Shown: positions 13,294-51,336 of the stretch, one piece after another
Layout of the letters: each line of letters starts with the position of its first letter
Numbering within the stretch: position 1 is the stretch's first letter
From: Allobosea sp. Root381
GTDB taxonomy: Bacteria > Pseudomonadota > Alphaproteobacteria > Rhizobiales > Beijerinckiaceae
DNA: 64,000 bases
Reading direction: 5' to 3'
Assembly: GCF_001429395.1 (NCBI RefSeq)
Contig: NZ_LMJT01000017.1
Coordinates: forward strand, 389-64,388
Position numbers and translations under genes: made by a program
The notes under the pieces: generated by a model
Seen by the model: only the letters and a program-made list of their open reading frames with translations
Database searches by the model: none
What the model was told of the DNA's origin: nothing

Positions 13294-15600
13294 TCAATCG
13301 TAATAGTAGAAGCGGTGCGAGCCGGAGATCTCGATCGAGAACTCTCTTGCGCCATCCTGCTCCACGGTCACGTCGATGAAGGTCGATTCCTTGTCGCCGG
13401 CCTTCTCGATGCGGAAGCGGAAGGGCCGGTCGTCGTCATCGTCGTCGTCGTGATAGATGCGGCCGAAATTCTCCGGATCGTCCGGACGGTCGTCATCATC
13501 ATCATCATCGTCCTCGTCATCGTCATCGTCACGGCGCCGCAGCGTGTATTGCTTCACCACGATCTTGTCGCCGACCTCGAGATCGAGGATGCGGTGGATC
13601 AGCTCGCCCGCTTCCTCATCGGCGTCGCGCCCCTCGACCTCGAACTTGAAGGTGTCGCAGCCTTCCCCGCCCGAAAGAGTGACAGCAGCCTGGCTTCCGA
13701 CCACGAAGGTGTCGTTACCGGCGCCGCCGACCACGATCTCGAAGCTGTCGATGCGGTCCCTGCCGGCCTCCTCGCCACGCAGATCGCCCCTGACGAGATC
13801 GACGAGCGTGTCGGTCCGCAGCAGGCTGAGATCGAGCGTGTCCTGCCCCGCGCCGCCTTTGTAGACATCCGAAACGCAATCGGCATCGACGATGACGGTG
13901 TCGTCGCCCTCGCCGCCATCGACGTGGTCGCGCCCGGCGCCGCCGGACAGCACATCGTTGCCGGCCGAGCCATGCAATTCGTCATCGCCGTCGCCGCCGG
14001 AGAGATAGTCGTCGCCCTCGCCGCCGATCAGGCAGTCGTTCCCGGCTTCGCCGAAGAGCGCGTCGTTGCCCGCGCCGCCTTCGAGGCGGTCATTGCCGGC
14101 GCCGCCGAACAGCACGTCATTGCCGGAATCGCCTGCTAGATTGTCGTCGCCGTCATTGCCTTCGATGACGTCGTCGCCGTCGCCGCCATGGAGCTCGTCA
14201 TTTCCGTCGCCGCCGAACAGGAAATCGCGCCCCTCATCGCCGAAGATCACGTCATCGCCAACACCGCCGGAGATGTGGTCGTCGCCCGAACCGCCGAACA
14301 GGCGATCATTGCCGGCGCCGCCAAAGATCACGTCGTTACCGGCATCGCCATAGATGACGTCGTCGCCATCCTCGCCATGGAGCTGGTCGTTGCCCGCTCC
14401 ACCCCGGATGATGTCGTTTCCGGCCCCGCCGAAGACGATGTCGTCGCCGTCGCCGCCCTCGATCACGTCATTGCCGTCGCCGCCATAGATGACGTCGTTG
14501 CCGGCGCCGCCAAGGAGTACGTCGTCGCCGCCGCGGCCGTCGATCAGGTCGTTGCCGCCGCGCCCCTCGATATGGTCGCGGCATTCGGTGCCGATCAGCT
14601 CGTCGCTGCCCTGCGTGCCGACCTGCACCAGCACCTCGACGACGTCGAAGCCTGCGGTCTGCTGCACGGAGTAACGCCCATCGGTGATCTGGTAGCTCAG
14701 CGTGACCGGGCCGAAATAGCCGGGCTCCGGCGTGTAGATCCAGCCATCGGCCGTCTGCGAGATCTGGCCGCGCGAGGCGAGCAGGTTGATCACCCGCAGC
14801 GCGTCGCCATCGGCGTCGCTCGAGCCGAGAAGCAGCATGGCCATGGTCAGCGTCACCGTCTGGCAACCACCGAGATCGGCCAGGCGCAAGGCGGGGCCGA
14901 CCCGGGGCGGCCGGTTGCGGACGCCGGGCTCGGGGCCCGGCCCCGGTCCCGGACCTGGCCCCGGGCCGGGATCATGGCCGTCATCGTCGTAGCCCGGCCC
15001 AGGCCCCGGGCCGAACGGCGGCCAGCCGCCGAAATCCGGCACGCGCACCGCGGGGTCGATCGATACCCCCGGCAGCGCACCGAAGCCGCCTGAGCCCGAC
15101 GCCCAGAAGGAAACCCGGAAGCCGTTGTCGTTGCTCGCGCCGAAGCCTTCCGGCGGCTGCATCCCGATCGGCACGAAGGGATAGCTCGCGAAATCGAACG
15201 CCGGCGAATCGATGTTGAGGTAGTCCGGCAGTCCGGGCAGGGGCTGCCCCGGACCACCGGAGCCGATCGCCTGATCGAACTCGCGGCCGATCGAGCCGGT
15301 TTCGTCCTCCGGCGCCGGCTCGTCCGGCCGTCGCTCCTTCTCCTCCGCCTGCGCGGCGTGGCGCTCGTCGGGCGGGGCGGCGCCGGCCTCATCTTCGCCG
15401 GTCGCCGGCTTGGGCGGCGGGGGAGCCTCGGCCGCATCCCGCGCGAACAGGCTCTGCACGAAGGAGGCGAGCGCGATCACCGCCCCGACCAGGACGACCG
15501 CGATGCGCGACCGTGCCGGCGGCGCCTCGCCGCCCTGCGCATAGATCTGCGCGGCTGATGGAGCCTCTTGCGTGCGGCGCGCGGCCTTGACGTCGATCAT
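13294..15600 (-). CDS. Membrane-anchored RTX calcium-binding protein in a type I secretion operon
   Basis: 768 residues. Order: cytoplasmic start, one transmembrane segment (about 33-52, IAVVLVGAVIALASFVQSLF), an acidic/proline stretch, a Pro-Gly linker (about 195-235), a cadherin-like domain (about 250-325) and about 20 RTX nonapeptides (330-570). A C-terminal beta part is interrupted by two aspartate tracts (about 690-730), and the chain ends SGSHRFYYYD. The start overlaps the stop of the ABC ATPase gene by 4 nt (ATGA), and the hlyD-like gene follows 20 bp later, so it is translationally coupled to the exporter. An N-terminal membrane anchor is unusual for a type I substrate. It may be a retained substrate, an assembly factor, or a surface-linked scaffold. 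Function unknown. Confidence 0.88.
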   Translation of the reverse strand: MIDVKAARRTQEAPSAAQIYAQGGEAPPARSRIAVVLVGAVIALASFVQSLFARDAAEAPPPPKPATGEDEAGAAPPDERHAAQAEEKERRPDEPAPEDETGSIGREFDQAIGSGGPGQPLPGLPDYLNIDSPAFDFASYPFVPIGMQPPEGFGASNDNGFRVSFWASGSGGFGALPGVSIDPAVRVPDFGGWPPFGPGPGPGYDDDGHDPGPGPGPGPGPGPEPGVRNRPPRVGPALRLADLGGCQTVTLTMAMLLLGSSDADGDALRVINLLASRGQISQTADGWIYTPEPGYFGPVTLSYQITDGRYSVQQTAGFDVVEVLVQVGTQGSDELIGTECRDHIEGRGGNDLIDGRGGDDVLLGGAGNDVIYGGDGNDVIEGGDGDDIVFGGAGNDIIRGGAGNDQLHGEDGDDVIYGDAGNDVIFGGAGNDRLFGGSGDDHISGGVGDDVIFGDEGRDFLFGGDGNDELHGGDGDDVIEGNDGDDNLAGDSGNDVLFGGAGNDRLEGGAGNDALFGEAGNDCLIGGEGDDYLSGGDGDDELHGSAGNDVLSGGAGRDHVDGGEGDDTVIVDADCVSDVYKGGAGQDTLDLSLLRTDTLVDLVRGDLRGEEAGRDRIDSFEIVVGGAGNDTFVVGSQAAVTLSGGEGCDTFKFEVEGRDADEEAGELIHRILDLEVGDKIVVKQYTLRRRDDDDDEDDDDDDDDRPDDPENFGRIYHDDDDDDDRPFRFRIEKAGDKESTFIDVTVEQDGAREFSIEISGSHRFYYYD
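13491..13530. repeat. Trinucleotide tract encoding poly-aspartate
   Basis: CGTCATCATC-type GTC/ATC triplet repeats, read on the minus strand as Asp codons. A shorter tract of the same kind lies at about 13429-13452. Such tracts can expand or contract in whole codons without a frameshift. Confidence 0.7.
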
Positions 15601-17378
15601 GCCGACACCCGCTGGTTGAGGGCTTCAGGAGAGAACGCACCGACATTCGGCAGGCCGGGTGCAGGCCTCGCTGCCTCCTTGGGCGCAGCCGTTCCGGGCT
15701 TGATGATCTGGTCGCGCGGGCCGAAGGCGCTGAGCTTGCCGCCCTGGATCACGCCGACATAATCGACCGCGATCAGCGCGCTGGGGCGATGCGCCACGAT
15801 CACCACGATGGCGCCGCGGGCCTTGAGTTGCTCCACCGCCCGCGTCAGCGCCGCCTCGCCTTCGCCGTCGAGATTGGAGTTGGGCTCGTCCATGACGACG
15901 AGGAAGGGGTTGCCGTAGAGCGCGCGCGCCAGTCCGATACGCTGGCGCTGGCCCGCGGAGAGAGCCGCCCCTTGCGAACCGAGCGGCGTGCGATAGCCGC
16001 CGGGGAGCCGCACCACCATGTCGTGGATGCCGGCCGCGGTCGCAGCCGTGACCACGGCCCGCGAATCCCCGGCTTCGGCCAGGCGAGAGATGTTCTCCTC
16101 CACCGTGGCGTCGAGCAGCCCGACCTCCTGCGGAAGATAACCCATTGCCCGGCCGAGATCCTCCTCCGGCCACTGGTCGAGCTCGGCGCCGTCGAGCCGC
16201 ACGGCGCCGCGCAGGGTCGGCCAGATGCCGGTAAGCGCGCGGACCAGCGTGGTCTTGCCGCCGCCGCTGGGGCCGATGATGCCGAGCGCCTTGCCGGCCT
16301 CGACCTCGAAGCTGATATCGCTGAGCAGCACCTGGCCGCTGCCCGGCGCCGCGACCGTGATGCGCTCGACCCTGAGGCCGCGATGCGGCGCCGGCAGCGG
16401 CATCGGCTCGCCGGCCTTGCTGAGCGCGACGATGGTCTCGCGCAGCCTGGCGAAGCTCTGCCGCGCCGCAACGAAGGGCTTCCAGTTGGCGATCGCCTGG
16501 TCGACCGGCGCCAGGGCGCGGGAGGAGGCGACCGACGCCGCGATGATCGCGCCGGCCGAAAGCTCCCCGCCGATCGTCAGGAAGGCGCCGAGGCCCAGCA
16601 CCGCCGATTGCAGCACCATCCTCAAAACCTTGGAGACCGCGCCGAAGGAACCGGACACGTCGCTGGCGCGGGTCTGCAGGTCGAGATGCTCGGCATTGGC
16701 GGCGGCGAAACGGCGCGCGGCGCGCTCCGCCATGCCCATCGCCTTGATCACGTCGGCGTTGCGCGCGTTGGAATCGGCGATCGCGTTGCGAGCCATCGCG
16801 GCCTGCCGGGCCTGCGTCGTGCTGCGCCGCGCCATCACCTCGGCGCCCAGCGTCATCAGCGTCAGCACCACCGCGCCGGCGAGCGTCAAGGCGCCGAGCC
16901 AGGGATGCAGCAGGTAGATGAAGACGAGATAGATCGGGATCCAGGGCAGGTCGAACAGCGCGCCGGGCCCCTGGCTGGAGAGGAAACCACGCACCGTGTC
17001 GACATCGCGGCCGCGCTCCAGCGCCTCGGTGCCGGAAAAGCCGAAGCGTGGCATGTCCATCGTCACGCGATGCGCGATCGGCGCGACATTATGGTCGAAG
17101 CGCGCGCCGACCCGGACCAGCATCCGCGTGCGGACGGCATCGAAGCCGCCCTGGAAGACATAGAGACCGAGCGCGATGACCGAGAGGGCGACCAGGGTCT
17201 GCACGCTGCCGCTGGTCAGGGCGCGGTCATAGACCTGCATCATGTAGAGCGAGCCGGTCAGGGCCAGAACGTTGATGACGCAGGAAATCCCGAGAAGGTA
17301 GGCGACGACCCCGCGCATCCCTTCGGTCAGTTTTGCGGCATCGCGCCGACGCGCGAGATTCAGGCTTTGACCCGACAT
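15597..17378 (-). CDS. Type I secretion ABC transporter permease/ATPase (PrtD family)
   Basis: 593 residues: six-helix membrane domain (about 20-310), then the nucleotide-binding domain with Walker A GPSGGGKTT (about 372), Q-loop LPQEVGLLD, signature LSAGQRQRIGLAR (about 474), Walker B FLVVMDEPNSNLD (about 496) and switch AHRPS. It lacks the peptidase-like N-domain of HlyB, as PrtD-type exporters do. It powers one-step export of C-terminally signalled RTX proteins. It is the first gene of the secretion operon, 78 bp after the peroxidase gene with a hairpin between. Likely substrates are the three RTX proteins of this window. Confidence 0.95.
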   Translation of the reverse strand: MSGQSLNLARRRDAAKLTEGMRGVVAYLLGISCVINVLALTGSLYMMQVYDRALTSGSVQTLVALSVIALGLYVFQGGFDAVRTRMLVRVGARFDHNVAPIAHRVTMDMPRFGFSGTEALERGRDVDTVRGFLSSQGPGALFDLPWIPIYLVFIYLLHPWLGALTLAGAVVLTLMTLGAEVMARRSTTQARQAAMARNAIADSNARNADVIKAMGMAERAARRFAAANAEHLDLQTRASDVSGSFGAVSKVLRMVLQSAVLGLGAFLTIGGELSAGAIIAASVASSRALAPVDQAIANWKPFVAARQSFARLRETIVALSKAGEPMPLPAPHRGLRVERITVAAPGSGQVLLSDISFEVEAGKALGIIGPSGGGKTTLVRALTGIWPTLRGAVRLDGAELDQWPEEDLGRAMGYLPQEVGLLDATVEENISRLAEAGDSRAVVTAATAAGIHDMVVRLPGGYRTPLGSQGAALSAGQRQRIGLARALYGNPFLVVMDEPNSNLDGEGEAALTRAVEQLKARGAIVVIVAHRPSALIAVDYVGVIQGGKLSAFGPRDQIIKPGTAAPKEAARPAPGLPNVGAFSPEALNQRVSA

Positions 17379-41517: not shown

Positions 41518-41988
41518 TCAGACTTCCTGAACGGCAGGCACGCGAACAGGCCTATGACGGAAACGTACCACTTTCTCTCTGCTGGCTCCTGCAACCACCC
41601 GGCTGACACCGGGCGCCTCCCGGAGCACGCTCCGCCAGGCGTTCTCCACCTCGGCCGTGAAGGCAACGCCAAGTCTTCGGCGCAGCGTCCACATCAAGGT
41701 TTCTTCGAGTTCGTGGTATCGGGAGCTTATCAGCCGGCAGACCTTGTCGGACGGCGCCAACGCCCTCACCGTGGGTCCGATCGCACCGAATGGCCCGGCA
41801 TGGGCCAATATGAACGCGAGCGCCCGTAAGAAGCTGCGTTCCTCAGGGGCGAAGTCCATGCAGAACACCCGATAGACGTCCGGATATGTCTCGAGCAGCC
41901 GGATGTTGAACATGATGTCCGCCTGCTCGGCTTCGGAGCCCATAGTCTCGAGGCTCGCCAAGGCGAGCGAAATGGCGCGGTCGCCCAT
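41518..41988 (-). CDS. Globin-fold protein lacking the heme proximal histidine
   Basis: 156 residues. ATG 41988 follows the autotransporter stop by 10 bp and has SD GAGGTGG. The chain aligns with the globin domain of flavohemoglobins: LLETYPDVYRVFCMDF matches the B-C-D region with CD1 Phe kept, and RYHELEETLMWTLRRRLG plus FTAEVENAWRSVL match helices G-H. At the proximal F8 position (ten residues before the aligned Tyr) there is Asp instead of His, and the B10 Tyr is Asn. Heme binding in the usual way is therefore unlikely. The arrangement indicates co-transcription and perhaps co-function with the autotransporter. A regulatory non-heme globin, as in RsbR N-domains, is one model. Confidence 0.75.
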   Translation of the reverse strand: MGDRAISLALASLETMGSEAEQADIMFNIRLLETYPDVYRVFCMDFAPEERSFLRALAFILAHAGPFGAIGPTVRALAPSDKVCRLISSRYHELEETLMWTLRRRLGVAFTAEVENAWRSVLREAPGVSRVVAGASREKVVRFRHRPVRVPAVQEV

Positions 41989-41998
41989 CGATCCCACC

Positions 41999-44900
41999 TC
42001 AGAATTTCGCACTGAAATTGGCCTTGAAGGATTGGTCCGCGCCGCCTGAGCCGAACTGGCCGCCATAGGAAACACCGAGCACGGCCGTGGGTGTCAGCGC
42101 GAAGTCGACACCGGCCTCCACCAGCGCCGCATCGCGCGCAATCGGCCCTCCGGCGATCGTGAACGGATTGCCGCCGCTGGCGAAGCGCATCGTCGTGGTC
42201 GAGGTCACGTCACCGAAGGCGTGGCGCCAGCCGACCATGCCCCTGGCCGTGACCGACGCGCCATTGACGTCGAACGTTGCGGAACCGCGCAGGCCGAGCG
42301 TGGTGAAGCCGGTCTGCGCATTGCTGGACCCAGCCGTCAGCGCCGCCGCGCCGCCGGTCTCGCGGAAGCTGTCCGTATGCAGATTGGCATAGGCGAGGTT
42401 GGCGAAAGGCTCGAAGCGGGTCGCCCCCATGGAGAAGCCATAGGCCAGCTCGCCGAAAACCTGCGCCGTCGCCGCGCCGTAGTCGCCCCCGAGGCTGTTG
42501 CCGATGCCGGGGAAGGCCAGGCGGCGGCTGGTCGAGACGTCGTGCCAACTATAGGCCGCCCCCGTACGCAAGGCGAGATTGCCCCATTGCGCGCCGCCAT
42601 AGACGCCGAAATGGTAGTTGTCGCTCGTGCCGGACGCGTAGCGCATTTTCGTATCGAAACTGCTGTGGCTGTAGCCTGCGACGGCACCGAAACGCCAGTT
42701 GTCGAAAGCCGGGACGTCCGCGCCGATGAAGAAGCCGCCGGTCGAGCGGATGACACGGGCGGCATTGTGATTGCTGCCGGCATGGCCCCAGGAGCCGAAG
42801 CCCTGCCCCCAGAAGGCGAGGCCGTCCCTGTTTCCGGCAACCGGCTTCGGCACGCCGTCCTGATAGGTAACGACGGGGCCTGAAGCTCCCACGCCGTCGA
42901 AGGCCCCGCGGAGGCGATCATTGACGGCGTTGCGGACGAAGCGGCTGTCCTCGATCAGCACGGTCTTCGCGGAAGCGTGGAGTTCACCCGAAAGCTGGTC
43001 GAAAGCGCTGCGCGCCTGCTCGGCCGAGAGGTTCAACACTGCGTCATGGACGGCGTTTCCGCTGCCGAGACTGTCGACGCCGCCGCCTGTCGCCCTCTGG
43101 TTGGCCGTGCTGCCGATCTCGGCGAAGCCGACATTGTTGCGTGTCATCGTCAGATAGACGTTGTTCTCGTCATAGCTGAGCGACGGATCGAGGAAGACGA
43201 GGCTCGAGGTCACGCCCTCGGAGAAGGTGCCTGTGACGCCTCGCCCCGCCGTCAGGATCGTGTATCGCGTCGATGCCGCATAAGCTCCGGTTCCGCTCAC
43301 GACCCGCACGGCGCCGCCGTCGATCACGGCCGACTCGGTGACGGCAAGACTGTCGGACTGCCCCGCCCCGTCGACCTCGACCTCATAGGTCGAGCCCATG
43401 CGGAAATGGATCGAACCGTTGACGGCCAGCGTGCCGATCGAGTTGCCGGGCGAGATGGTCGCGCCGGCACTGATGACCGTCGAACCTATCGTGCCGACGC
43501 CCGACAATACGGTACCGTTCTGCATGTCCAGCGAACCGCCGAGATTGCCCTCGACCGCCAGCCCGCCGCTGATGACCGCGGTGGAGCCGGTGAAGGCCGA
43601 GCTGTCGCCCGTCAGGCGCAGCAGGTTGCCGCCGCCGACAGCGACCTGGAAATCTCCCGATCCGGAAATTGAGCCGCGATAGGTGCCGCTGCCGGCCTGG
43701 CCGAACCGCAAGAAGGCATCCTGCGCGATCGAGACATTGCCGCCGAACAGATCGGTTCGGGAAATCAGGCCGCCTTGGCTGATCGTCCAGTCTAGCGCGC
43801 CGGCCCCGGCAAGAGTTAGCGTTCCGGCGCCGGTCTTCTCCATGGTGCCCCGGCCATGGATCTCCCCTTGGAACACGCCGTCTCCGGCCTGATCGAACAC
43901 GACATGGCCGTTGTTGCCGATATTGTTCCTGATGCTCCGGCTATTGCCGACGAGCGTGCCGGCCCGGACGAGGGTGTCGCCGCGGTAGCCGTTGTTGCCG
44001 GTTATGATCAGCGTGCCGTGGTCGTCCTTGACGAGGGCGCCGTCGCCGCGCAGCTCCGACGCGATCGTGGCGACGTAGGCGGAGCCCGCCCGCGAACCGT
44101 CGCCGACGCGGATGACCGTCTGCTCATCGGCCAGCGTGATGGCGTCGCCCTCGATGCGATAGCCATCGACGGCGAACTGCATGCCGCCCACGGAAACCGC
44201 GCCGTCGGCGCCGCTCACGGTCACGACGCCCGGAGCCGCCTGGAAGACCGCGAAGCGGCCGCCCCAACCATGGTTGGCCTCGCCGTTCGCGGTCGTCCAA
44301 TTGGTGGGACCGTTCCGCCAGATGCCGCTCCCACCGGCAATCGCGCCGTCGGAGATCGTGCCGGCACCGTCCCAGAACTGTATCGCCGGGCGGGGATCGG
44401 GACCTGGGCCCGGGCCCGGGTCCGGGTCGGCGCCGACGACGATGTTCACCTGATTGGCGATGGCGGTCTGGATCGCGATGTCACCGATGCCGTAGCGGCT
44501 ATCGTCCGGCACGCCGACGACCTCGAGCCCGTTGTCGGTCAAGGTTCCGCCATAGTTGAACAGGCGGTAGACGCCCTGGCCGAAATTGACCCCGGCACCG
44601 TCGTCGATGGTCAGCCTGCCATCGAGCGTGAGATGGCCCTCGACCTCGAAGAAGGCAGAGCTGCTCGGTGCATCGACCAGGATGTAGATGTCGGAATTGT
44701 TCTGGAGCGTCAGGCTCCCCATGGTCAGGGTGCGGTCATATTGCCCGACGAGCCGCCCGCCATCGGCGATGGCGACATTCCGCTCGATGCGGCCCGAGCC
44801 CGTCACCGTGCCGCCAAAGGCCACTTCGACATTCCCGCCATAGCGGCCATCGAAGGAGAGCCCGCCATCCCGGATGATTGCGCCGGGCGAGTCGAGGCTA

Positions 44901-46384
44901 TGGCCGGTCAGGCTCACCATGCCCCGGCCGACCTTGTTGATCACATGGTTATGGCCGGTGATGACGCCGGACAAGGTGCCGTAGTCGTTGTTGTCGAGCG
45001 TGATGCTGTCTTCGAGCAGCATGCTCTGGGCGATCGTGACGCCGTTCGACAATTCCAGGGCGCTGCGGGTGCCTGCCGCCCTTCGGAAGGTCACGTTGCC
45101 GCCGAGGCCGAAGGCATTGTCCCGGCCCGCCACGACCCTGCCGCCTTCGATCGATGTTCCGCCGATGTAGCTGTTTTCGGCAAGCAGCCAGAGCGTGCCG
45201 TCGCCATCCTTGCGCAGCCCGCCGAGTCCGCCGATTGCGCTCGAAATGGTCGAATCGCCATCCCGGACACCGATCATAAGGATGGCGTTCTCATCGAGGA
45301 TGATCGTTCCGCCGGCATTGCCCTGAATGCGATCGATCGTCTCGCTTCGAGCCAGGCGCAATGTGCCGCTGCTGCCGACCCGCAGTTGGCCGGTGTCGGC
45401 GATCGCATCGCCGCTGTCGAGCACCAGCGTGCCGTACTGGACGTTGGTGTCGCCGGTGAAGCTGTTCCGCCCGGTCAGGGTGAGCGTGCCGTTGCCATAT
45501 TTGACGAGCGGGCCCGAGCCCGAGATCGTGCCCGCCACGGTTGCGGAATGGCCGGGGCCGACATTGAGCATCGCTCCGGCGGTGCCCGAGATCAGCATGT
45601 TGTTCGCTAGGTTCAGCCCGTCGACATTGAAGGTCAGCTGCGAGGCCGACGAGCCGTTGGAGGAGAACGCGATCGCGCCCGTGCCGATGCCGGTGGCCGA
45701 GTTCAGCCTGATATCGCCGTAGGCGATCTCGGTGCCGCCGGAATAAGTGCTGTTGCCATTCAGAATGACCGCGCCGCTTCCGACCTTGCGAAGCCGCGAC
45801 GTTCCGGCGCCGTCGTGAAGACCCTCGATCGAGCCGATCGTCAGGGTGAAGGTCGCGGCGGTGCCGGCGCTGTCGTTCTGAACGGTGCCTCTGGTATTGG
45901 TGAAATTGTTGAATTCCAGATCCTGTCCCGCAAGGTCCAGAGTGCCGGCGCCGACCAGCGCGACCCTGGTTCCGTGGCGGGTAAAATACTCGCGCCCCGC
46001 AAGGCTCGGGCCGAACTGGAACCGCCCCTCCCACAGCCGCAGCAAGCCGGCGTGATTTCCCGGCGATGTCTGGATGCCCGAAATGGAATCGGGCGAAAAG
46101 ATCAGGGTGCCGTAGCTGGGGCCTACGCTGCCGATGTTGAGAGTCGAATTCGACTGCAGGAACCTTAGATTGCCGGCATAGGTCGCGGCAACGCCGCCCG
46201 CGGCCGAGATGGACGCCACAGCATTGGAGATGTCGATATCGTCATCATAGGTTCCGGTAGCCGTATAGCGATACTGGGCCTGCGCCGTGACGAGCGGCAG
46301 CAGAACACCCATCAGTGCAGTGGCGCAGAGAAGGCGGCTTTTTCGGGAAGAGACGGAATCCGTCACGCGGCTGGTGGCAAGCAT
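41999..46384 (-). CDS. Autotransporter with beta-strand repeat passenger
   Basis: 1461 residues: signal peptide (LLCATALMGVLLPLVTAQAQ), a passenger of autotransporter-associated beta-strand repeats (PATR type: G-x-G-TLxLTGxNSFTGDTxVxYG and close variants), a Pro-Gly linker near residue 660, a second repeat part, and the C-terminal translocator barrel (about 1180-1461). The barrel has GFGSWGHAGSNHNAARVIRS and ends SFKANFSAKF. It is probably an adhesin or a scaffold at the cell surface. It is followed at 10 bp by the globin-fold gene. The SD is weak. Convergent with the Tat-protein gene. Confidence 0.92.
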   Translation of the reverse strand: MLATSRVTDSVSSRKSRLLCATALMGVLLPLVTAQAQYRYTATGTYDDDIDISNAVASISAAGGVAATYAGNLRFLQSNSTLNIGSVGPSYGTLIFSPDSISGIQTSPGNHAGLLRLWEGRFQFGPSLAGREYFTRHGTRVALVGAGTLDLAGQDLEFNNFTNTRGTVQNDSAGTAATFTLTIGSIEGLHDGAGTSRLRKVGSGAVILNGNSTYSGGTEIAYGDIRLNSATGIGTGAIAFSSNGSSASQLTFNVDGLNLANNMLISGTAGAMLNVGPGHSATVAGTISGSGPLVKYGNGTLTLTGRNSFTGDTNVQYGTLVLDSGDAIADTGQLRVGSSGTLRLARSETIDRIQGNAGGTIILDENAILMIGVRDGDSTISSAIGGLGGLRKDGDGTLWLLAENSYIGGTSIEGGRVVAGRDNAFGLGGNVTFRRAAGTRSALELSNGVTIAQSMLLEDSITLDNNDYGTLSGVITGHNHVINKVGRGMVSLTGHSLDSPGAIIRDGGLSFDGRYGGNVEVAFGGTVTGSGRIERNVAIADGGRLVGQYDRTLTMGSLTLQNNSDIYILVDAPSSSAFFEVEGHLTLDGRLTIDDGAGVNFGQGVYRLFNYGGTLTDNGLEVVGVPDDSRYGIGDIAIQTAIANQVNIVVGADPDPGPGPGPDPRPAIQFWDGAGTISDGAIAGGSGIWRNGPTNWTTANGEANHGWGGRFAVFQAAPGVVTVSGADGAVSVGGMQFAVDGYRIEGDAITLADEQTVIRVGDGSRAGSAYVATIASELRGDGALVKDDHGTLIITGNNGYRGDTLVRAGTLVGNSRSIRNNIGNNGHVVFDQAGDGVFQGEIHGRGTMEKTGAGTLTLAGAGALDWTISQGGLISRTDLFGGNVSIAQDAFLRFGQAGSGTYRGSISGSGDFQVAVGGGNLLRLTGDSSAFTGSTAVISGGLAVEGNLGGSLDMQNGTVLSGVGTIGSTVISAGATISPGNSIGTLAVNGSIHFRMGSTYEVEVDGAGQSDSLAVTESAVIDGGAVRVVSGTGAYAASTRYTILTAGRGVTGTFSEGVTSSLVFLDPSLSYDENNVYLTMTRNNVGFAEIGSTANQRATGGGVDSLGSGNAVHDAVLNLSAEQARSAFDQLSGELHASAKTVLIEDSRFVRNAVNDRLRGAFDGVGASGPVVTYQDGVPKPVAGNRDGLAFWGQGFGSWGHAGSNHNAARVIRSTGGFFIGADVPAFDNWRFGAVAGYSHSSFDTKMRYASGTSDNYHFGVYGGAQWGNLALRTGAAYSWHDVSTSRRLAFPGIGNSLGGDYGAATAQVFGELAYGFSMGATRFEPFANLAYANLHTDSFRETGGAAALTAGSSNAQTGFTTLGLRGSATFDVNGASVTARGMVGWRHAFGDVTSTTTMRFASGGNPFTIAGGPIARDAALVEAGVDFALTPTAVLGVSYGGQFGSGGADQSFKANFSAKF

Positions 46385-46719: not shown

Positions 46720-47274
46720 CTATTTTGCGTTTGACAATTTTTTCATTCGTGCAACATAGGGTAACATAGCATCCCGATATTGTTCGCCGCGCTTGCGGAC
46801 GTTGTCTAAGGCTTGTGCATGGGCGCGGAGCATCTCCCGAGCGGCCTGCTTCTGCGCCGTCGTCATCTTTGCGGCCTCGCCGAGCCTGGTCGCGAACTCG
46901 TCAATCATGGTCTCGAGCTCGACAGGCGGGATGGCGGCGATGAAGCCCGCCATGGTCTGGTCGAACGCGTCCTTCCAGGAGGTTCGGGTGAAGCCGGAGG
47001 CGGGGATGAGCCGCGAGGCCTCTTCATCGATCTCGAACCACTCCGCGGCCGCCTCTTCGTCGAAATAGACCGTCTTTCCGCTTTCCACGGAGAGCCGCTC
47101 GAGAATGGTAACGACGGTCCCGGCCTTGCGCATGTCCAGGGCGGCGGCTCCGGTCGGTACGAAGGCAAAAGCCAGCGCGGCTACAAGGGCAATTCCGGCA
47201 AGCAGATTGCCGACCCTCGGCACGGAATGCTCGCTTGCTCGCCGGCCCCCGGGCCAGATCTCGCTGTTCCTCAT
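46720..47274 (-). CDS. Secreted helical protein of unknown function
   Basis: 184 residues from ATG 47274 (SD GGGGTGG); signal peptide GIALVAALAFAFVPTGAAA. The mature part is acidic at first (SGKTVYFDEEAAAEWFEIDEE) and then strongly helical with a basic end (KMTTAQKQAAREMLRAHAQALDNVRKRGEQYRD would be one amphipathic helix). No family recognised. It is divergent from the molybdopterin-fold/kinase operon, and the palindrome at 47339 lies in between, so it may belong to the same regulon, for instance as an accessory sensor or output protein. Confidence 0.7.
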   Translation of the reverse strand: MRNSEIWPGGRRASEHSVPRVGNLLAGIALVAALAFAFVPTGAAALDMRKAGTVVTILERLSVESGKTVYFDEEAAAEWFEIDEEASRLIPASGFTRTSWKDAFDQTMAGFIAAIPPVELETMIDEFATRLGEAAKMTTAQKQAAREMLRAHAQALDNVRKRGEQYRDAMLPYVARMKKLSNAK

Positions 47275-47418: not shown

Positions 47419-47955
47419 ATGCGCCGGATTCGATGCGCGCGGCCCTCCTGGCCTTCGCGGTCCATGCTTGCCCTGCTGATCGCAACAGCGATGCTTGCCG
47501 TTCCCGCAAGTGCCGCAGAGTTCGCGCGCCCGGCGGGGCCTATACTCCTGAGCCTGACGGGCAAGATCGGGGCAATGAATTCCGACAAGGCGGCGCTCTT
47601 CGATGAAGGCATGCTGTCGTCGCTGCCGCGGCACCAGATCGTGACGAGCTCTCCCTGGACCGAGGGCATCAAGCGTTTCGAAGGCTTCCGGCTGAAGGAC
47701 CTGCTGGACAAGGTCTCTCCCGCAGGCAGCATCCTTCGCGCGGAAGGCATCAACGGCTACCGGATCGATATTCCCATCTCCGACGCGGAAGAATTCGGCG
47801 TGCTGATCGCGTCGCGGATGGACGGAAAGCCGCTGCTGCGGCGCGACAAGGGGCCGCTCTGGATCGTCTACCCACGTGACGCTGTGGCAGCCCTGCAGAT
47901 TGACCGCTATGATTCACGATGGGTGTGGCAGCTCGACAAGATAGAGATCAGATGA
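47419..47955 (+). CDS. Periplasmic molybdopterin-oxidoreductase-fold protein without cysteine
   Basis: 178 residues with a signal peptide (MLALLIATAMLAVPASA). The mature part resembles the molybdopterin-binding domain of YedY/sulfite-oxidase proteins (LLSLTGKIGAMNSDK, RFEGFRLKDLLDKV, GYRIDIPISD, GPLWIVYPRD) but is short and has no Cys at all, so the usual Mo-ligating thiolate is missing. Its stop overlaps the kinase start (ATGA), so it is translationally coupled to it. A ligand-sensing partner of the kinase fits better than an enzyme. ATG 47419 was chosen because the signal peptide follows directly. Confidence 0.8.
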   Translation: MRRIRCARPSWPSRSMLALLIATAMLAVPASAAEFARPAGPILLSLTGKIGAMNSDKAALFDEGMLSSLPRHQIVTSSPWTEGIKRFEGFRLKDLLDKVSPAGSILRAEGINGYRIDIPISDAEEFGVLIASRMDGKPLLRRDKGPLWIVYPRDAVAALQIDRYDSRWVWQLDKIEIR

Positions 47956-49733
47956 GCAGCGGGGCAGGAAAGCGGACGGCAACAGCTATTACCATTGCTG
48001 TCATCGCCGCCTGCGCCGTGCTTCTAAGCCTGGCCCTGCACCGATTGGTGAAAACAGAAGAGGACCTGTCCAGCTCCTTCGGCGAGAATGTGCTGTGGTT
48101 CATCTCCCAGGTTCATTTCGAGAACCATCGTCTTGCCTTGGCCGCCGAAGCCTGGAACCGCGGCCATCGGACGGACGCCGACGTGCGGGAACTCCAGCTC
48201 CGGCTCGACATGGCGTTCAGCCGCCTCGCCGTGCTCTCGGAAGGTGTCTATCGGAACGTGATCGCGCGGAATCTCGGCAGCGAGCCTTTGGCGACGGCGC
48301 TCTCTCACCTCAAGACGTTCGAGGAAGCCTTGGGCCGCGCGATGGTGTCACGGGCACCGCTCCCGCAGTCCCACATCGACAGTCTCCTCAACGATGCCGT
48401 CGTGTTCAGCGCGGCGTCGAACGACGTCATGACGGCGGACCGCGACGACCTCGCCGCGCAGCGCGACACATACAGGCGGAACCTGCTCGAGGCGATCACC
48501 GCCATACTGCTGATCTTCGGTTTCGGGATCTTCATCGTGGTGCGCCTGGTGAAGAGCCTCCGCTCGGTGGCTCTGGCCGAGGCTGCGCTCAGGCGCGACC
48601 GCGATTTCTCGAACCTGCTCCTGGAGTCGAGCGGTGACGGGGTCGCCGCCTTCGACATGGACGGCCGGTGCACGCATCTGAATGCCGTGATGAGCACGAT
48701 TTTTCCCGTTCCCGGCGGGGCCGATGTCGTGGGACACCTGATCAAGGATGCCTACCGGCTGCCGGACGGCCACATCATCCTGAACATGATACGGGACACG
48801 GTGGCGGGGCAAAGCCTTCACATGCCTGCTCACCCGGTCCCGAACGGCAACCGCTATGTCGAGAAGTTCACCCATCCGGTCCGGTCGGGAAACGCGATCG
48901 TCGGCGGCGTCCTGTTGATCCGGGATGTCACGGATGCACATCTCGCCCGGATGCAGTTGCTCGAGCATCGCGACCAGCTCGAGGCGACCGTCAAGCAGCG
49001 CACCGGCGATCTGGAGGACGCGCTCGAACGCGAGACGCGCCTGCGCGAGCTCTACAAGGGCTTCGTCTCGATGGTGTCGCACCAGTTCCGGACGCCGCTC
49101 TCGATCGTCGATTCCAGCGCCCAGCGCATGATCCGCCGCGGGAAGGAGATGAGCGAGGAGGAAATCCGCGAGCGGGCGGGCAAGATCAGAACGGCGATCC
49201 TGCGCTTGACAAGGCTGGTTTCGAGCACCCTCAACGCGGCGAAGCTGGATGCAGGGGAGATCGACTTCGCACCGCGCCGCTGCGATCTCGGGAAGCTCAT
49301 CGTGGAAGCCTGCGAACGCCAGAAGGAGGCGACCCCCAACCGGCGCTTCACGATGGCGCTGGAGCAGCTGCCCGACTGGGTATCCTGCGATCCGCTCCTG
49401 ATCGATCAGGTCGTGGCCAATCTCCTGTCCAATGCCGTCAAGTATTCGGCTCCGCCCGATCCGATCGAGATCACGGCCGAGCTGGACGATTGCTGGATCC
49501 ACATCAGCATCAGCGACCGCGGCGTCGGCATCCCCGACGATGAGCGCGACAAGCTCTTCGAACGGTTCTTTCGGGCGAGGACCTCGGCCGGCGTGGAAGG
49601 CACCGGCATCGGCCTGCATGTGGCGCGCACCATCGCCCGGCTGCACCAAGGCGATGTCGTCTCTCTTCCGCGGGTGGCGGGCGGCTCGACCTTCGTTCTC
49701 AGGATCCCGAGAGAGGAGGCACTGGCAGCATGA
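47952..49733 (+). CDS. PAS-containing sensor histidine kinase
   Basis: 593 residues: TM1 about 10-32, helical periplasmic domain about 33-178, TM2 about 180-203, PAS domain about 225-345, HisKA with MVSHQFRTPL (His377) and HATPase with NLLSNAVKYSAP, DRGVGIP and GTGIGLHVA. ATG 47952 overlaps the previous stop by 4 nt; an upstream GTG (47919) would overlap more and has no signal. It probably senses through the periplasmic molybdopterin-fold partner and phosphorylates the regulator encoded next, whose start overlaps its stop. Confidence 0.93.
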   Translation: MSSGAGKRTATAITIAVIAACAVLLSLALHRLVKTEEDLSSSFGENVLWFISQVHFENHRLALAAEAWNRGHRTDADVRELQLRLDMAFSRLAVLSEGVYRNVIARNLGSEPLATALSHLKTFEEALGRAMVSRAPLPQSHIDSLLNDAVVFSAASNDVMTADRDDLAAQRDTYRRNLLEAITAILLIFGFGIFIVVRLVKSLRSVALAEAALRRDRDFSNLLLESSGDGVAAFDMDGRCTHLNAVMSTIFPVPGGADVVGHLIKDAYRLPDGHIILNMIRDTVAGQSLHMPAHPVPNGNRYVEKFTHPVRSGNAIVGGVLLIRDVTDAHLARMQLLEHRDQLEATVKQRTGDLEDALERETRLRELYKGFVSMVSHQFRTPLSIVDSSAQRMIRRGKEMSEEEIRERAGKIRTAILRLTRLVSSTLNAAKLDAGEIDFAPRRCDLGKLIVEACERQKEATPNRRFTMALEQLPDWVSCDPLLIDQVVANLLSNAVKYSAPPDPIEITAELDDCWIHISISDRGVGIPDDERDKLFERFFRARTSAGVEGTGIGLHVARTIARLHQGDVVSLPRVAGGSTFVLRIPREEALAA

Positions 49734-50809
49734 GTGTTCATCGTTCGAGCATGACGGATGCGGCCTCCAGCCGGCAGAGAACCATTCTCTGCGTCGAGGA
49801 CGAACCGGATCTCCGCTCCGATATCGTCGAGGAGCTGGTTTCGGCGGGCTACCGCGTCATCGAGGCCGGCAATGGCCGGGAAGCGCTCATCAAGCTCGAA
49901 GACATCCGCCCGGATGCGATCCTGTGCGACATCACCATGCCTGAGCTCGGCGGCTACGAGCTGATGGCGAAGCTTCGGGCCGAACGTCCCGAACTCGCCG
50001 AAGTGCCCTTCATTTTTCTCACCGCGCTCGCCGACAAGGCGGAGGTGCTGAACGGCAAGAATGCCGGCGCCGACGACTATCTGGTCAAGCCAGTCGACTA
50101 TGATGACCTGCTGGCGACGCTCAAGGCGCGGCTTCGACTCGTCGACCGGATTCGTGACGCGTTCCTTGCCGATCTCCAGCGCCAGCAGCAGAGAATGATC
50201 GAGGAGGCGGTGCGCGACGGCGAGGTGGCGCTGGCCGCCTTGGCGGCGGCTCTGGACCGGCTGTCGATCGGCATCTTCCTGCTCGAGGAGACGGGCGAAG
50301 TCCGCATGGCCAACGAGGCGGGCCGGCAGCTGGCCGGAAAGGGCGACGGCTTGTCGCTGACGCCCACGGGGCTGCTCGCCCGTTCCAGCGCGTCCTCGCA
50401 ATCGTTGAGGGCTGCACTCGCCACGGTGTTGCGGGATGCCGGAACCAGCCAGACCCTCGCGGTCGCGCGTGACGAAGGGCATCCCCTCATCCTCCAGATC
50501 TCGTCGCTCAGCGTGCCGGGCAGCAACGCCCGCCATGCCATCGCGCTGGCGGTCGATCCCGACAGGCAGGCCGACATCTCAACGGAGCTTCTGGCTTCCC
50601 TGTTCGGCTGCACCTCGGCCGAAGCCCGGCTGGCTGCGGCTCTGGTCGCGGGCAAGAGGCTCGAGGAGATCGGAGAGGAGTTCGGTGTCAAGCAGACGAC
50701 GATCACCTTCCATCTGCAGAACCTCTTCCAGAAGACCCATACCAACCGGCAAGCCGATCTCGTCGCCCTCCTGATACGGGCCACGCTGCCATTATCGTTG
50801 AGCCATTGA
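49730..50809 (+). CDS. Response regulator with receiver, PAS-like and LuxR HTH domains
   Basis: 359 residues: receiver (about 17-135) with acidic pair in CVEDEPD and phospho-acceptor Asp67 (ILCDITMP), a coiled helix (140-165), a PAS-like domain (about 170-280, IGIFLLEETGEVRMANEAG) and a LuxR-type HTH (about 290-350, CTSAEARLAAALVAGKRLEEIGEEF, QTTITFHLQNLFQKT). ATGA overlap with the kinase. The inserted PAS domain suggests a second input. The palindrome occurring before the operon and right after it is a plausible target. Confidence 0.93.
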   Translation: MSVHRSSMTDAASSRQRTILCVEDEPDLRSDIVEELVSAGYRVIEAGNGREALIKLEDIRPDAILCDITMPELGGYELMAKLRAERPELAEVPFIFLTALADKAEVLNGKNAGADDYLVKPVDYDDLLATLKARLRLVDRIRDAFLADLQRQQQRMIEEAVRDGEVALAALAAALDRLSIGIFLLEETGEVRMANEAGRQLAGKGDGLSLTPTGLLARSSASSQSLRAALATVLRDAGTSQTLAVARDEGHPLILQISSLSVPGSNARHAIALAVDPDRQADISTELLASLFGCTSAEARLAAALVAGKRLEEIGEEFGVKQTTITFHLQNLFQKTHTNRQADLVALLIRATLPLSLSH

Positions 50810-50892: not shown

Positions 50893-51336
50893 ATGCGATC
50901 AAGACATTCCGTTTTCGCGCGGCAGGCATCGGCATCGGCGCGAATGGCCATACGTGCCTTGCAATCAGCGCGCGCGGTCGGGACATTCCTGAGCCTGGCT
51001 GTGCTCACAAATTGCCAGAGTTCACCGCAATCGAGTTTCGACAGCCCGGTCTTTTCAGACGAGACGCGCGCGCTGGAAAAACAGCTCGATGCGGAGGCTG
51101 CCGCGTTGGGAACGGCGCAAGCGCTCATGAGCATGCCTGCCGCATGGGACCCGACCGGAGCCGCAAGCCTGGTGACGATCCCTGCCGGCCTGGCTGCCCG
51201 AGAAGCGTTCCGGCGGCAGGCGGACGCAAGAATGGAGGCTCAGTTGGCAAAGGACCAGGCGGAGTTCTATCGCAGATACGGCCTGAACCCCGACGGGAGC
51301 CCCAGCGGGCGCAAGGGGCCCTTGTCCGTAGACTAA
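50893..51336 (+). CDS. Putative small lipoprotein
   Basis: 147 residues; SD GAGGTGG six nt before ATG 50893. A signal sequence ends in a lipobox-like LAVLTNC, giving lipidated Cys near 41. The mature part is helical and Ala/Gln-rich (ETRALEKQLDAEAAALGTAQALM), then basic. No family recognised. Downstream of the two-component operon with the shared palindrome between, so probably a regulon member. Confidence 0.65.
   Translation: MRSRHSVFARQASASARMAIRALQSARAVGTFLSLAVLTNCQSSPQSSFDSPVFSDETRALEKQLDAEAAALGTAQALMSMPAAWDPTGAASLVTIPAGLAAREAFRRQADARMEAQLAKDQAEFYRRYGLNPDGSPSGRKGPLSVD

Follow-up and report, generated by a model that had tools for sequence, protein, structure and literature searches.

We report here a gene pair in which a globin-fold protein with altered heme-ligand residues is encoded directly behind a classical autotransporter gene, in a stretch of 64,000 nucleotides from Allobosea sp. 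Root381 that as a whole is called the window in what follows. That the globin gene is real, that its product is homologous to globins, that its B10, E7 and F8 positions are altered, that its linkage to the adhesin has a single origin, that its context is conserved and that it evolves under purifying selection were all computed directly. The explanation that we favour, with a confidence somewhat short of even, is that a mobile operon for a type V adhesin acquired a heme globin on a single occasion and that this globin became, in one of its lineages, a heme-independent cytoplasmic partner. Under this explanation the operon, which moves horizontally and has the order autotransporter-globin-SapC-IalB, would have received a canonical heme-binding single-domain globin immediately after its autotransporter gene, and in the branch to which the window belongs the heme-ligand residues would have been replaced and other residues fixed. 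The altered globin would then most likely be a heme-independent cytoplasmic protein-binding partner, an adaptor or a regulator, co-translated with the adhesin and acting by protein contact within the adhesin system, with a partner protein and an effect on adhesin expression or export that are both putative. That the captured globin is by now a dedicated heme-free accessory of surface-protein display, with a task in secretion or in the control of secretion and no longer in the chemistry of heme or gases, is a more doubtful extension of the same idea.

The pair lies on the minus strand and consists of three features.

41518..41988, minus strand: globin-fold protein of 156 amino acids with altered heme-ligand positions (N28 = B10, F42 = CD1, E49 = E7, D81 = F8)
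41989..42001, minus strand: junction, in which the stop codon TGA (42001-41999) overlaps the ribosome-binding sequence GAGGTGG and the globin ATG follows at 10 bp
41999..46384, minus strand: classical autotransporter (type Va) of 1461 amino acids, with a signal region by eye, a PATR-repeat passenger and a complete beta-barrel

The globin frame opens with an ATG at position 41988, and the AGGTGG ahead of it overlaps the autotransporter stop codon, just as an earlier note on this DNA had described it (a globin gene 10 bp behind the stop, with a strong SD sequence). From this spacing and the overlapping ribosome-binding site we infer that the globin is co-transcribed and co-translated with the autotransporter. 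The scan for terminators at the locus gave nothing above shuffled sequences, and the promoter scan gave weak promoter-like sites only, upstream of the autotransporter. The autotransporter matched the Pfam Autotransporter beta-domain PF03797 over its full length (E = 1.9e-65), the PATR repeats and TIGR01414 (E = 1.2e-51), and it has the passenger and the C-terminal 12-strand beta-barrel domain that define the classical type, the barrel ending in F. It thus resembles PATR-repeat autotransporters of the classical type Va in its signal region, repeat passenger and beta-barrel, but differs from them in having a globin gene behind it, most of its relatives being accompanied by genes of the SapC and IalB families as well. 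The globin has no signal peptide by eye and is presumably cytoplasmic. The window globin aside, the Pfam search of the genome found no second globin.

Assignment of the 156-residue protein to the globins depends mainly on profile comparisons. As a single sequence its match to the Pfam Globin family is below threshold (E = 0.047), and phmmer against the PDB gave E = 5.4e-7. The profile of the seven-member family made up of this protein and its six orthologues (see below) matched HGbRL (E = 4.2e-19), HGbI (E = 3.3e-16) and Vitreoscilla hemoglobin (E = 6e-7), and also leghemoglobin and hemoglobin zeta. The likeness to the HGbI, HGbRL and Vitreoscilla hemoglobin group (M family) covers residues 2-130 (E from 4e-19 to 6e-7) and includes the predicted helical layout and the CD1 Phe, whereas the window globin lacks the F8 His, the B10 Tyr, the E7 Gln and the YGV of the FG region, and differs further by residues that are invariant in its own clade and by its setting in an adhesin operon. 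Structure prediction from the window sequence by itself reached a pLDDT of 38, and an AlphaFold model from the seven-row alignment was used instead (mean pLDDT 65, pTM 0.62, helical core at 70-88 pLDDT), a moderate model from which the filling of the pocket is not readable. The best PDB matches listed for it were all globins, with HGbI first by Foldseek and a best VIA-align Z of 11.6; since Z values of up to 13 can occur for helical bundles, the case for a globin is carried more by the sequence profile. Profile and model taken together place the protein encoded at 41518-41988, by descent, in the globin superfamily.

Relatives with the same alterations are few. The genus-wide search (67 genomes) yielded three orthologues with 43-46% identity, well apart from the ordinary globins, and an alignment scan of named genomes yielded six loci, these three included, in Rhizobiales isolate AFS012373, Bosea sp. 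ASV33, Bosea sp. 47.2.35, Rhizobium sp. ASV20, Mesorhizobium soli and Brucella pseudintermedia. No match was found when genome contigs were scanned with the window globin as the lone query, the profile picked up the window member only among 385 genomes from the class and 239 from the phylum, and a profile search of 394 genomes of the Brucella family recovered two known members together with two further genomes, G907 and G1004. The altered-globin family is rare.

The alignment bore out that, as noticed earlier from the letters, F8 His has become Asp (Asp81) and B10 Tyr has become Asn (Asn28) with CD1 Phe kept (Phe42); E7 Gln has in addition become Glu49. The corresponding distal residues of HGbI are Tyr29(B10) and Gln50(E7) (PMC4476040). 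In the alignment of 83 unlinked ordinary globins of related genomes, F8 is His in every one and B10 is Tyr in 82. B10 Tyr is absent from all seven altered members (N, H, H, A, A, A, A) and F8 His from six of them (D, D, N, R, R, R), the exception being the member of Bosea sp. 47.2.35, which retains both F8 His and E7 Gln. The FG motif YGV, conserved and heme-contacting in other globins, is gone in all seven, its Gly being replaced by Arg85. The earlier note's idea of a degenerate globin beside a type V secretion gene is supported, with heme probably absent, and we infer heme-independence for six of the seven members, the one in Bosea sp. 47.2.35 having kept its F8 His.

An unlikely alternative is that the altered globin still binds heme through a substitute axial ligand, such as a helix E/F residue (Cys or Lys) or, weakly, an Arg, Asp or Asn, and that it keeps a role related to gas or redox chemistry. 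Ligand switching is seen in the subgroup of HGbRL, the closest solved relative, in which heme is hexacoordinated by Lys52(E10) and His (PMC4476040), and retention of heme would agree with the CD1 Phe kept in six of the seven members (Leu in M. soli only), with the Cys84 near F11 found in four, with the F8 His of one member and with the heme type of the linked canonical globins described below. Members differ at F8, however, where D, N, R and H all occur, and no alternative ligand is common to all seven, since Cys84 is F or G in the other three and E10 is variously S, R, K or Q; moreover B10, E7 and YGV have been lost together, as would be expected if contact with heme had become irrelevant.

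The variability of the F8 and B10 residues could also mean that a former heme globin is decaying and that the gene is a pseudogene on its way out, and the M. soli copy, whose frame (L092 9923-10474) runs on in frame into a degraded IalB gene, could be taken in the same sense. We consider this very improbable, because the dN/dS values (NG86) of the globin in three recent pairs (0.20, 0.15 and 0.19) argue against decay. The frames are open in all seven members and 30 alignment columns are invariant across them, including ones that are new relative to other globins: L32, Y39, R40, S80, R85, R104 and L122 are invariant in the seven and rare elsewhere among globins. Open frames, purifying selection and new invariant residues together largely refute the pseudogene reading.

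In all seven genomes the altered globin is on the same strand as, and downstream of, an autotransporter gene homologous to that of the window (33-63% identity for the orthologues). No gene lies between the two in the window and in Bosea sp. 47.2.35, one predicted membrane gene does in AFS012373 and Brucella, and two to three genes do in ASV33, ASV20 and M. soli, including DoxX and lipoprotein-like ones. SapC (PF07277) is found downstream of the altered globin at four loci and IalB (PF06776) at five, with a remnant in M. soli, the window pair being without adjoining SapC and IalB genes. The two further genomes of the Brucella family search, G907 with two loci and G1004 with one, have an autotransporter, then a globin after 9-10 bp (L101, L102 and L103), a spacing matching that of the window, then SapC and IalB; their globins are canonical, with Tyr B10, Gln E7 and His F8. 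Over the ten linked loci an autotransporter is present in all, with its barrel in nine, SapC in seven and IalB in nine (one being the remnant). The unit is thus larger than the pair and comprises autotransporter, globin, SapC and IalB. The neighbourhood survey also established that the pair extends beyond the genome in which it had been noticed, with seven altered-globin loci in seven genomes and three canonical-globin loci in two more. In Bosea sp. 47.2.35 the autotransporter frame (L093 8602-9990) has only 451 amino acids, with the passenger joined in frame to the last barrel residues, by deletion or by assembly collapse, and the globin behind it is intact. With F8 His and E7 Gln kept and so short a frame in front of it, this member shows that the tie of the globin to a complete adhesin is a loose one; this and the lack of SapC and IalB beside the window pair weigh against the explanation that we favour.

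Maximum-likelihood analysis of 87 globins joined the ten adhesin-linked ones in a single group (UFBoot/SH-aLRT 100/100) and nested the altered seven inside it, again at 100/100. The stem of the altered seven is long (1.39 in the quick tree), and the window globin is itself a long branch. Because the ten linked globins form one group with the altered seven nested in it, the tree indicates a single origin of the linkage within the sampled set, involving a globin of the heme type, and a later loss of the ligand residues. Autotransporters are common in the genus, with a strong match in 37 of 67 genomes. Control neighbourhoods were examined. None of 84 other globins had such a linkage within 1.5 kb; this distance would miss loci with three intervening genes, for which reason the control was widened to 26 larger regions around other canonical globins, and autotransporter, SapC and IalB were absent from all of them. 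With the canonical linked globin as query, searches of plasmids gave, in the region inspected, only unlinked globins or unannotated neighbourhoods. Conserved context, a single clade and a clean control set put the adhesin-globin pairing above chance. The clade spans the whole transition within the same operon type, from canonical members with His and Tyr, through one that has kept His and lost Tyr, to members that have lost both, which opens the how and why of heme loss in a globin to direct tests on closely related members that share a conserved genomic partner.

The module seems to travel. Between AFS012373 and Brucella (L089 250-11907 against L094), and likewise between ASV33 and ASV20 (L090 5728-11890 against L091), DNA identity stays within 78-87% through the module and ends at the IalB stop codon, and the synonymous divergence of the globin is only 0.3-0.4. 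Because identity of this level ends at IalB and synonymous divergence is low, the module has probably moved between genera as a defined block, and recently by appearance. Movement as a block would also be expected if the globin were merely carried along on a mobile adhesin cassette, with an unrelated job and no functional link to it, a possibility that we hold to be fairly unlikely even though many autotransporter-SapC and autotransporter-IalB loci lack a globin. All ten linked globins are on the same strand and downstream of the adhesin despite amino-acid identities down to about 37-50%, canonical and altered members alike show the spacing of translational coupling, and SapC, IalB and the accessory genes turn over more than the order of adhesin and globin does.

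Non-heme globins are known, of the phycocyanin and RsbR types, and the earlier note had likened the window protein to the sensory non-heme globins of RsbR. This comparison did not hold beyond a likeness in fold and in loss of the ligand, namely a globin fold without proximal His: the window protein is a single domain of 156 amino acids without STAS, its sole Pfam match being to Globin, it has a separate origin among the single-domain heme globins of adhesin operons, its nearest solved relatives are HGbRL, HGbI and Vitreoscilla hemoglobin, its nearest sequences are His-bearing globins of the same operon type, and no stressosome genes were seen nearby. The Rsbr_N profile matched none of the seven members at E ≤ 1, in a search whose HMMER filters drop weak matches, and the Foldseek and VIA lists for the globin model contained no RsbR entry, a result with which similarity of fold is still compatible. 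That the protein is a stress sensor of the RsbR or stressosome type, acting on a sigma/anti-sigma system, seems to us exceedingly improbable. The N-terminal domains of RsbR are non-heme globins according to the literature, and in Rhizobium sp. ASV20 the module is followed immediately by genes for an ECF sigma factor, a FecR-like regulator, an STN-type TonB receptor and iron ABC transport (L091 12499-19596), but the sigma set occurs at this locus only and the aligned block stops before it. The globin-coupled sensors (HemAT, globin-diguanylate cyclases and HGbRL with Roadblock/LC7) have in common with the window protein a globin domain possibly used for signalling, and differ from it in carrying an output domain in the same polypeptide.

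Several genes beside the window pair have homologues at the other loci or may bear on its regulation.

46720..47274, minus strand: 184-amino-acid protein with a signal-like N-terminus and no Pfam family
47419..47955, plus strand: secreted-type protein with an oxidoreductase molybdopterin-binding domain, divergent
47919..49733, plus strand: sensor histidine kinase (PAS, HisKA, HATPase), divergent
49730..50809, plus strand: response regulator with a LuxR-type HTH
50893..51336, plus strand: small lipoprotein-like protein

Homologues of the 184-amino-acid protein precede the autotransporter in AFS012373 (L055/L089), Bosea sp. 47.2.35 (L057/L093) and Brucella (L094), and a homologue of the small lipoprotein-like protein sits between autotransporter and globin in ASV33 (L056/L090) and M. 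soli (L092). Sensor kinase and response regulator are kept in divergent orientation in the window, AFS012373 (L055) and Brucella (L094), and the kinase is a candidate regulator of the module.

The open-licence literature yielded no description of a globin in an autotransporter-SapC-IalB operon, nor of a series from canonical to ligand-less globins within one, so that the pairing with type V secretion, already suspected to be undescribed, apparently is so in that literature. The pairing hints at a gas-binding protein repurposed inside a surface-adhesion gene module, and it offers a way into the functions, so far undescribed, that SapC and IalB proteins have beside large surface adhesins.

In several Alphaproteobacteria, SapC-family genes directly follow the genes of very large type V-secreted surface proteins.

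L134 (G000:C15:80599-81255): SapC-family gene
L127 5965-6747: SapC-family gene
L128 5968-6768: SapC-family gene
L129 5995-6720: SapC-family gene
L131 4953-5720: SapC-family gene

Their partners are autotransporters or filamentous-hemagglutinin-like proteins, at L134 with a probable FhaC-like partner, and SapC has the look of a cytoplasmic protein that generally accompanies very large type V-secreted adhesins. In one genome (G251, L084 7072-12561) an orthologue of the window autotransporter is followed directly by IalB, without a globin. In other genomes of the genus (L059, L060 and L061) a gene similar to the window frame 15597-17378 is followed within about 10 bp, or overlapped, by the gene of an ordinary globin that has its His; this neighbourhood recurs and is separate from the adhesin operon.
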